Assembly (NCBI GenBank): GCA_943348815.1 | Contig: CALQYT010000007.1 | Span: 1-33,610, forward strand | DNA length: 33,610 nt | Direction: 5' to 3' | From: Candidatus Nomurabacteria bacterium | GTDB taxonomy: Bacteria > Patescibacteriota > Minisyncoccia > Phycocordibacterales > SBAW01 | Shown: positions 31,253 to 33,610 of the stretch, piece after piece | Layout: the number at the start of each line of letters is the position of its first letter | Position numbering within the stretch: the stretch's first letter is position 1 | Notes under the pieces: model-generated | Told to the model about the DNA's origin: nothing | Seen by the model: only the letters and a program-made list of their open reading frames with translations | Database searches by the model: none | Translations under genes and position numbers: made by a program

Positions 31253-31705
31253 ATGAATCAAGCACAGCTCAAAGAGCAAATGAAGGACGCCATGCGCGCC
31301 AAGGACCAGGTGCGGCTTAGCGTTATCCGCGGACTCCTCTCGGCCATGCAAAACGACGCGGTCCAAAAGGGCAAAGGCCCCGATGGCATGTTAGACGAGG
31401 CCGAAGCCTTGGCCGTAATTACCCGCGCCTCCAAACAACGCAAAGACTCTATCGAGCAATTTGAGAAAGGCGGGCGCCCCGAGTTGGCCGAGAGCGAAAA
31501 GGCTGAGCTCGCCATCATTATGTCCTTCCTCCCCGCTCAGATGAGCCGCGACGAGATCGTTGCCGCAGCCACGGCCAAAGCAACAGAACTTGGTGTTGCT
31601 GATAAAACCGGCGCAAATAAATTGATGGGTATGTTGATGAAAGATCTCCGCGGCAAAGCCGACGGTAACGATGTAAAAGCGGTTGTAGACAGTATGTTTG
31701 CATAA
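31253..31705 (+). CDS. YqeY/GatB-domain family protein
   Basis: The 150-residue product matches YqeY-type proteins, which are related to the tail domain of GatB (the tRNA-dependent amidotransferase). It has LKEQMKDAMRAKDQVRLSVI at the start, LAVITRASKQRKDSIEQFEK in the middle and LPAQMSRDEI to GKLMGMLMKDLRGK-like text at the end. The exact role is unknown. A start at 31253 gives the family length; the frame extends upstream to 30869, but that part reads through the opposite gene. The last codons (GAC-AGT-ATG-TTT-GCA-TAA) recur at 32405-32422. Confidence 0.9.
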   Translation: MNQAQLKEQMKDAMRAKDQVRLSVIRGLLSAMQNDAVQKGKGPDGMLDEAEALAVITRASKQRKDSIEQFEKGGRPELAESEKAELAIIMSFLPAQMSRDEIVAAATAKATELGVADKTGANKLMGMLMKDLRGKADGNDVKAVVDSMFA

Positions 31706-31708
31706 ATT
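31688..31708 (+). repeat. Left copy of the yqeY 3'-end repeat
   Basis: GAC, three variable bases, then ATGTTTGCATAAATT. It includes the last four codons and the stop of yqeY. The right copy is at 32405-32425. Confidence 0.75.
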
Positions 31709-31717
31709 CAATAAGAC

Positions 31718-31746
31718 TTGACAACTGTCAAGATATTTGCTAGTAC
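31718..31746 (+). promoter_or_regulatory. Promoter of the 31810-32340 gene
   Basis: TTGACA (31718-31723) and TAGTAC (31741-31746) are separated by 17 bases. The -35 box is inside the inverted repeat CTTGAC-AACT-GTCAAG (31717-31732), a possible operator. A palindromic AGATCTAGATCT near 31786-31797 precedes GGGAG (31799-31803) six bases before the ATG. Confidence 0.65.
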
Positions 31747-31809
31747 AGCTCCAGTCTGTATGTGTGTTGCGTCTGTGTATCCCTCTAGATCTAGATCTGG
31801 GAGCAGACT

Positions 31810-32340
31810 ATGACCGAGACCACTGTTGTGGACACCACCCCCAAGCCGACGGGCTGGGACGCCTTCAAGGAATGGTGGAATAAGTTCTGGGCCGCCCTGT
31901 GGTGGCTGTTTGTGAAAGCGTGGCTGCTCTGGCCCATCACCATGATGGGAGTGCAATATGCTGACAGCACTCTGCGTTTGCGCGTGCATGAATACGCGTC
32001 ACTGAGTGACGACCAAGACGCCCATCTGTGGAAGCTCCTGGGCATCGCTGCCGCCCTCGGCTTTTGTTGGGTGGCGGCGCTCGCCGGGCGGCTCATCGTC
32101 TCCGGCACAAGCTTCTGGTACATGATCATCGCTAGCCTGGGCAACATCCTGCTCGCCTACGGCATGCTGGTGATGCTCGGCTGGAAGATCGCCAAGGGCA
32201 CGCTGTCATGGTGGTACATTATGCCGGTTTCCTTCGGCGCTATCGCCGGCATCGTGGCGACATTCGTGTCGATCGCCATCCTCGCGCGCACCCTGCGTGA
32301 CACGCTCGAGCGGCTCGACGCCACCGGCCGCAAAGACTAA
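31810..32340 (+). CDS. Four-span membrane protein, unknown
   Basis: The 176-residue product has a Trp-rich amphipathic N terminus (WDAFKEWWNKFWAALWWLFV) and four hydrophobic segments at about 28-48, 75-98, 101-124 and 133-157, with a charged C terminus (RDTLERLDATGRKD). No family is recognised. The gene has a full sigma-70-like promoter, GGGAG six bases before the ATG, and a strong terminator. It uses AAG rather than AAA for most Lys, unlike dnaB in this window. The whole unit lies between two copies of the yqeY 3' end. Confidence 0.7.
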   Translation: MTETTVVDTTPKPTGWDAFKEWWNKFWAALWWLFVKAWLLWPITMMGVQYADSTLRLRVHEYASLSDDQDAHLWKLLGIAAALGFCWVAALAGRLIVSGTSFWYMIIASLGNILLAYGMLVMLGWKIAKGTLSWWYIMPVSFGAIAGIVATFVSIAILARTLRDTLERLDATGRKD

Positions 32341-32362
32341 ACGCGGCCATCTGTTTGTAACG

Positions 32363-32390
32363 ACCCCCGGAACCTATGAGTACCGGGGGT
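32363..32390 (+). terminator. Terminator of the 31810-32340 gene
   Basis: ACCCCCGG and CCGGGGGT form a perfect eight-base stem around a 12-base loop, followed by TGAGTAATTTTAT. Confidence 0.75.
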
Positions 32391-32404
32391 TGAGTAATTT
32401 TATT

Positions 32405-32425
32405 GACGACATGTTTGCATAAATT
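32405..32425 (+). repeat. Right copy of the yqeY 3'-end repeat
   Basis: GAC, GAC, then ATGTTTGCATAAATT, identical over 15 bases to 31694-31708 and with the preceding GAC also matching. Read in the yqeY frame it gives Asp-Asp-Met-Phe-Ala-stop. Its TTTGCA also serves as a possible -35 box for the next gene. Confidence 0.75.
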
Positions 32426-32442
32426 TGAGTTTAGGGTATAAT
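32414..32442 (+). promoter_or_regulatory. Promoter of the 32488-32721 gene
   Basis: TTTGCA (32414-32419) and a perfect TATAAT (32437-32442) are separated by 17 bases. The predicted transcript starts near 32449, so a coding start at 32425 is not possible. Confidence 0.65.
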
Positions 32443-32487: not shown

Positions 32488-32721
32488 ATGGGGATACCCG
32501 CTATGCTACGACCCGTCACCTACCCACCTCAACCGCCGTTGGCCGAAATTGAGGCGCACAAGCGCGCCGTACGCGGCCTTTACCGGCACGTGAAGAGCTT
32601 CGGCGTACCGCTCGAAGTGTTGCTCAGTGCTGCGCCACTGGCTCCGTCAATGGCCGACATCGTCGATACCGTAAGCAACCATCTCAACGCCGGCGAACGC
32701 CAGACCTGCCACGCGTTCTAA
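32488..32721 (+). CDS. Small hypothetical protein
   Basis: The 77-residue product (MGIPAMLRPVTYPPQPPLAE at its start) has a Pro-rich N terminus, a basic helix (HKRAVRGLYRHVKSFG) and a helical C terminus. No family is recognised. The ATG at 32488 lies downstream of the promoter; the ATG at 32503 (preceded at eight bases by GGGGA) is an alternative that would lose five residues. Neither has a strong Shine-Dalgarno. A long hairpin terminator follows. Confidence 0.5.
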   Translation: MGIPAMLRPVTYPPQPPLAEIEAHKRAVRGLYRHVKSFGVPLEVLLSAAPLAPSMADIVDTVSNHLNAGERQTCHAF

Positions 32722-32754
32722 GCGTCGCGTCGTCGAGTTTGCGTCGTAGAGTTC

Positions 32755-32791
32755 AGGGCCCCTAGTTTCCCCCGGGAGACTAGCGGGCCCT
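32755..32791 (+). terminator. Terminator after the 32488-32721 gene
   Basis: AGGGCCC and GGGCCCT pair, then CTAGT with ACTAG and TTCCC with GGGAG-type pairing inside after one mismatch. TTGTTAGTTTTAT follows. The same T-rich stretch begins the promoter of the next gene. Confidence 0.75.
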
Positions 32792-32818
32792 TGTTAGTTT
32801 TATATTTAGTGGTATTGT
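32791..32818 (+). promoter_or_regulatory. Promoter of the 32843-33052 gene
   Basis: TTGTTA (32791-32796) and TATTGT (32813-32818) are separated by 16 bases; the start would be near 32825. Confidence 0.5.
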
Positions 32819-32842: not shown

Positions 32843-33052
32843 ATGATTAGTTACATCCTGGGGTCTGACCAACCCCATCCCGAGCAACTTCCGGGTGAGA
32901 ACTTTATCGGCAACGTACGCCTCAATCACCCTGAGGATTACGAACACCGTACCGACCTTCGGTTCGGCGAGATCGCCTACCACACCGTCACAGGCGAGAA
33001 GCTTGAGGGGCTTGTCCCGGCTTTCGCCCCAGCTATCCAAAAGGCAGCGTAG
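32843..33052 (+). CDS. Small hypothetical protein
   Basis: The 69-residue product begins MISYILGSDQPHPEQLPGEN and contains NFIGNVRLNHPEDYEHRTDL and FGEIAYHTVTGEKLEGL. It is acidic, soluble and His-rich, with no recognised family. GGAGGG lies nine bases before the ATG. It has its own promoter and a terminator that overlaps the stop codon, so it is a complete single-gene unit of 32791-33083. Confidence 0.6.
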   Translation: MISYILGSDQPHPEQLPGENFIGNVRLNHPEDYEHRTDLRFGEIAYHTVTGEKLEGLVPAFAPAIQKAA

Positions 33053-33115: not shown

Positions 33116-33610
33116 ATGCCAGAACCACGAGACCCGCGCCGAAGAGGACCGACCCAAGCCGCAGATGTATTTGGCCCCGCGTTTAAAGAAGCATTCCGTA
33201 TTTTAAAAGACAAATTAGAGGACGCCCGGATCAAGCCAAGCCGTTTTATAGGGCAGCCAGGATTTAAAGACATAGCGAGCGATTTGGCTGAGGTTGAAAA
33301 AAATCATGCCCGCTGGGAGCGTCGTTATGTTCGCGAGCCGAAGTTACGCCAATACAAAGAAGCCTCAGAAGTTTCCGAAGCCTTGATCGCCTTCCACCCA
33401 AAAATATTGCTTGGACCTAATGTCGAAGCCATCGTGATGTCTGACTTTGATAACGAGCGCCATGGGCTCGACATCGGACTCATCATAAAAGACGCTGAAG
33501 GGAATGAACTCACTACTATTGCTCTACAAATTACCTTTAATACAGAAACATTGCAGGCAAAACTGCAATCGGTAAAAGACAAAATAAATGAAGGAAGTTT
33601 AGGGACTATA
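33116..33610 (+). CDS. Hypothetical protein, possible diverged nuclease-like fold (partial, open at window end)
   Basis: The frame from the ATG at 33116 runs 165 codons to the last base without a stop. The N terminus is basic (MPEPRDPRRRGPTQAADVFG), followed by helices (ARWERRYVREPKLRQYKEAS). The end reads DNERHGLDIGLIIKDAEGNE, then ALQITFNTETLQAKLQSVKD and KINEGSLGTI. A strand bearing Asp followed by a second strand and a helix with Lys is reminiscent of the PD-(D/E)xK core, but the second acidic residue is Gln here, so activity is doubtful. The TATACT box and leaderless spacing match core genes. Confidence 0.7.
   Translation, partial: MPEPRDPRRRGPTQAADVFGPAFKEAFRILKDKLEDARIKPSRFIGQPGFKDIASDLAEVEKNHARWERRYVREPKLRQYKEASEVSEALIAFHPKILLGPNVEAIVMSDFDNERHGLDIGLIIKDAEGNELTTIALQITFNTETLQAKLQSVKDKINEGSLGTI

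Follow-up and report, generated by a model that had tools for sequence, protein, structure and literature searches.

The closing bases of yqeY occur twice in the DNA studied here, on the plus strand and 717 bases apart, and the question that this locus raises is how the second copy came to lie there. The window, meaning the whole stretch of 33,610 nucleotides that was analysed, is the end of contig C7 of a metagenome-assembled genome of 0.82 Mb (labelled G000). A preliminary description of this DNA took the segment between the copies to be a complete gene unit that had either integrated into the 3' end of yqeY, restoring that end, or arisen by tandem duplication. We arrive at a different history, which is the best explanation as a whole at roughly even odds (probability of about 0.5): a slot in which the junction at copy 1 would be inherited, the gene behind it (gene A) swapped, and a module carrying a further gene (gene B) joined later.

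The named records closest to this genome are Candidatus Adlerbacteria and other Paceibacteria. Comparisons were made with a congeneric set of 35 genomes, G000 counted in, in 33 of which YqeY was found, and with a wider set of 80 yqeY records drawn partly from the same genomes as these 33 loci. In a tree built from DnaB and YqeY, G000 stands beside (G033,(G003,G008)).

yqeY occupies positions 31253..31705 (+) and encodes 150 aa (Pfam YqeY, 1.4e-39) ending in KAVVDSMFA-stop. Copy 1 of the repeat, ATGTTTGCATAAATT at 31694..31708 (+), consists of the last 12 bases of the gene, including the stop codon at 31703-31705, plus ATT. Copy 2, again ATGTTTGCATAAATT, is found at 32411..32425 (+) in the terminator tail of gene A; the TTTGCA within this copy doubles as a -35 box. 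The GAC at 31688 recurs at 32405, but the three bases that lead from it to ATG are not the same in the two copies. Identity over 26 nt is 81%, and 5' of GAC there is no clear homology between the copies. What copy 2 holds of yqeY is limited to GAC, the last 12 coding bases and three more. The duplicated gene end was therefore correctly reported, exact over 15 bases with GAC upstream. This 15-mer has no further exact occurrence, either in the window or elsewhere in the assembly. That the repeat might act in regulation at both promoters was considered and set aside on sequence grounds, copy 1 lying upstream of gene A's -35 box and copy 2 overlapping that of gene B. An assembly misjoin at the repeat was likewise rejected, because 15 bases are too short to cause a k-mer misjoin.

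Gene A (31810..32340, +) encodes an orphan membrane protein of 176 aa and has a third-position GC of 0.82. It is preceded by a promoter and 5' leader with GGGAG (31712..31809, +) and followed by a terminator hairpin (CCCCCGG...CCGGGGG) with its tail (32360..32404, +; z -3.7). The promoter reads TTGACA-17-TAGTAC, with TGC before TAGTAC, and its TTGACA, at 31718, sits in a TTGACA..TGTCAA inverted repeat. The account of this segment as a complete unit with a four-span membrane protein holds for the strong terminator and for three clear hydrophobic spans, but the fourth, a Trp-rich span at the N-terminus, is weaker and the -10 hexamer is poor. No match to the protein was obtained in Pfam, PHROGs, NCBIfam or PDB, and a homolog is absent from 41 family genomes, the genome contig collection, viral contigs and phage records. 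A search of the window and the leaders against Rfam returned tRNA only, the rest being sub-threshold noise.

Which of the two junctions is the older one is indicated by the relatives. Across promoter, leader, ribosome-binding site and ATG, the 107 bases that follow copy 1 match what lies behind yqeY in G033 (z 8.2, reached by 0 of 20,000 dinucleotide shuffles). Among the 33 loci compared this is the only significant match, the next best having a z of 1.4. The G033 leader in turn matches that of G003 (z 10.9), and G008, which is nested in the same group, has a different leader. Behind the common leader lie mutually unrelated orphan genes, of 176 aa in G000, 105 aa in G033 and 87 aa in G003; since unrelated orphans follow a conserved leader in three genomes, the cargo has been exchanged at least twice in this clade. 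The homology of the leader, together with the tree position of G000, implies that the copy 1 junction predates the split of G000, G033 and G003. On the most parsimonious reading, yqeY, promoter and leader are probably ancestral as a block, and copy 1 would then be no fresh junction. This runs against the expectation that the old site resumes after 32425, as the homology to G033 lies after copy 1 and not after copy 2. Nor was an empty site, in which yqeY is joined directly to the sequence after 32425, found by DNA search, among 30 inspected post-yqeY sequences or in the wider set. The preliminary reading survives in part: for this gene end the repeat exceeds chance, the relatives lack it, and the spot varies and holds many orphans, but that the unit between the copies is the insert is not supported.

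Variable small genes come next after yqeY in the relatives. Most of these then have tRNA-Glu(ctc), and 17 of the compared sets have murF as well. The flanks yqeY, tRNA-Glu and murF are conserved and the ORFs between them differ from one relative to the next. About half of the relatives (L045-L073) have tRNA-Glu(ctc) and yqeY on one strand; in the rest the tRNA gene faces the other way, and its orientation differs even within close tree pairs such as G030/G034. In G003 and G012 (L048, L061), a -35-like TTGACA lies inside the coding end of yqeY (Val-Asp codons), with TATAAT or TATACT 17 nt on, just 3' of the stop codon. Around tRNA-Glu or the yqeY end there are short palindromic repeats such as TATAATCTAGTGGAGCGAGG... 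and AAGTTGGACTTACGAAGTCCAACTT (L051 1093-1190, L070 1665-1783, L066 602-727), some with direct repeats at their borders. A candidate genus-wide leader motif, GTAGTNTTGCGTNCC, was discarded, being no more frequent than in a reversed control.

Behind copy 2, a promoter-like site, TTTGCA-17-TATAAT (32414..32442, +; 10 of 12 positions, a score that about one site in the scanned region should reach by chance), precedes gene B (32503..32721, +), an orphan of 72 aa with an alternative in-frame start at 32488. A terminator hairpin follows (32740..32815, +; z -3.2), then a 69-aa orphan ORF (32843..33052, +), which lies in the stretch where the window departs from contig C5 of the same genome, and ORF E (33119..33610, +), which is open at the contig end. 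ORF E has a low third-position GC of 0.42 and is possibly foreign; it has no match in viral contigs or plasmids. With gene A unmatched in viral contigs and phages as well, a phage or plasmid origin was rejected. The leader of gene B has no significant match to the post-yqeY sequences of the relatives (best z 3.3 in 33 tests).

The first bases of contig C5 fall within another version of gene B, a near-identical copy or allele. Window positions 32618-32720 and C5 1-103 (L040) have two silent differences, after which the 3' regions diverge. Since C5 runs from gene B through another orphan gene to tRNA-Glu and murF, C7 and C5 probably lie next to each other in the chromosome. The second gene B may represent either an assembly branch point caused by strain variants or real stacking of genes, and the last 0.9 kb of the window is accordingly either extra sequence between two gene B copies or a strain variant. 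A branch in the assembly graph would fit the 67 bases of identity at the start of C5, and through them the assembly may be chimeric at gene B. That C5 starts in a gene B copy or allele means that stacking or strain variation goes on downstream. The orphan on C5 is a membrane protein of 194 aa (L040 250-834), and a 36% identical homolog occurs in the Adlerbacteria record L170 (3325-3876), where it lies directly upstream of yqeY, on the flank opposite to the one studied here.

We propose that the stretch from yqeY to the tRNA-Glu(ctc)/murF block is, in this genus, a variable slot in which small orphan genes would stand behind promoters beginning at the end of yqeY or just past it. The junction of yqeY, promoter and leader at copy 1 would have been inherited, gene A being exchanged coding cargo. 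Later, a second module, made up of a scrap of the yqeY tail, a promoter and gene B, would have come from another version of this locus and been attached behind the terminator of gene A. The likely route is RecA-type recombination with incoming DNA in which one end was homologous and the other was joined by microhomology. Genes for competence and homologous recombination, and natural competence itself, have been reported in Patescibacteria (PMC12455944), and in naturally transformable bacteria homology-facilitated illegitimate recombination pairs homology at one end with microhomology of 3-10 bp at the other (PMC3240628). Several points weigh against this history: the candidate homologous anchor at copy 2 comprises 15 bases only, a donor locus with gene B immediately behind yqeY did not turn up, the leader of gene B has no significant match behind yqeY in the relatives, and G008 has a different leader although it belongs to the same clade. 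The order of these events, their donor and the recombination route are what we infer from the arrangement.

The main competing history reverses this order. The whole A module, with its yqeY tail, leader and gene A, could have been imported from a G033-like lineage. In a related version, a unit consisting of gene A and a yqeY tail was inserted between what are now the two copies, restoring the end of yqeY, and the promoter of gene B is the older neighbour. It would have entered either by site-specific integration in trans or by single-crossover recombination with the DNA of a G033-like relative. The borders do carry what an element that restores a gene end predicts, namely a gene-end direct repeat with an exact core of 15 bases and divergence just upstream of copy 2. 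A promoter-like site follows each copy, and gene A is missing from all relatives. Against these points, G033 matches the sequence after copy 1 while no relative matches that after copy 2, and none has the predicted empty site. As the preliminary description had noted, no recombinase ORF lies between or near the copies. The one Phage_integrase match in the genome is a tyrosine recombinase (316-aa frame) located away from the unit, which we take to be most likely a housekeeping Xer protein. The predicted excision joint of the unit was not found in viral contigs, and the literature searched yielded no report of integration at yqeY. Terminal inverted repeats at the unit ends were dismissed as marginal (TCAATAA/TTATTGA only, p ~0.03). 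With no homologs of gene A in the genomes, viral contigs or phage records searched, no excision joint in viral contigs, only this marginal inverted repeat and a single tyrosine recombinase in the genome, nothing speaks positively for site-specific integration, and insertion of the unit between the copies is possible, if rather unlikely.

We also weighed chance or convergence, in which copy 2 is an AT-rich promoter region that happens to resemble the end of yqeY. Copy 2 does overlap a -35 box, and the similarity upstream of the ATG is weak. In these genomes, close direct repeats of at least 15 nt, all kinds taken together, number 60 in 767 kb, or about 2.6 per 33.6 kb, the length of the window; since such repeats are this common, the one at yqeY proves no mechanism by itself. 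In the 1.9 kb that follow yqeY, nevertheless, about 1e-6 matches to this particular 15-mer are expected. When yqeY tails were compared with their own next 2 kb at the 33 congeneric loci and in the 80 wider records, the longest match was 6-11 nt, the sole exception being G010, with 14 nt in a dispersed hairpin. The original judgement that the yqeY end was unlikely to recur by chance therefore stands, and we hold this explanation to be quite improbable. A tandem duplication of yqeY tail, promoter and gene with later divergence of one copy, which the two successive promoter-gene-terminator units led by the same 15 bases might suggest, is highly improbable because neither the two genes, A and B, nor their leaders are related (leaders z -1.4, products without similarity) while the 15 bases remain identical.

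Returning to the slot with its inherited copy 1 junction, we considered whether it exemplifies something more general, namely a standing expression site at the yqeY end of Adlerbacteria. Promoter and leader would be kept there, orphan genes would be swapped, and stacking would leave scraps of gene ends, giving a cassette-like slot that is free of recombinases and driven by DNA uptake. This generalization is offered as speculation and is itself unlikely on the present comparison.

A separate observation came up when tRNA-Glu was checked for duplicated ends. Shortly 3' of tRNA genes (Glu, Ser, Leu, Val and others), and on the same strand, Adlerbacteria and some other Paceibacteria carry a structured element of ~85-110 nt (G000:C12:2647-2718, equal to L240 1501-1572; L236-L249; L056 8949-9032; L063 2147-2230). 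DNA matches occur in 20 of the 35 congeneric genomes, and in nearly all checked cases the model hits lie 11-93 nt after the tRNA. The element forms two strongly covarying hairpins, with double changes in 12 of 24 pairs; it matches no Rfam family, and nothing was found in the literature on a tRNA-linked RNA in this phylum. Its 3' end is an exact copy of 17-20 nt of the end of the adjacent tRNA-Glu (L056 8873/9025, L063 2067/2223, L064 6886/7085), each copy matching the variant of its own tRNA. The T-arm within this copy pairs, in several genomes, with the 5' side of the element itself. The copied end may be either an attachment-site-like or a tRNA-mimicking duplication.

If the proposed history is true, tiny host-dependent bacteria can acquire and swap expressed orphan genes while encoding no mobile elements, and do so at a fixed address with a ready promoter. 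At present the result is modest, one well-described case of local genome plasticity, and its lesson is that the ancestral junction should be established before duplicated gene ends are called integration sites. The locus resembles genomic islands and integrative elements that target 3' ends in that a gene-end direct repeat flanks lineage-specific DNA. It differs from them in that the unit measures only 0.7 kb and lacks an integrase, neither an empty site in relatives nor a circular form is seen, and the proximal junction looks ancestral. There is also a likeness to homology-facilitated illegitimate recombination, in which insertions of ~1 kb lie beside homologous anchors, with 3-10 bp of microhomology at the other end (PMC3240628). 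That process is usually accompanied by deletion, whereas here a 15-base scrap of a gene end is duplicated and no deletion is demonstrable. Finally, as in variable gene slots, conserved yqeY and tRNA-Glu/murF enclose orphan genes that differ among the relatives examined; unlike in the usual slot, three related genomes keep the promoter and leader and differ in the coding cargo.
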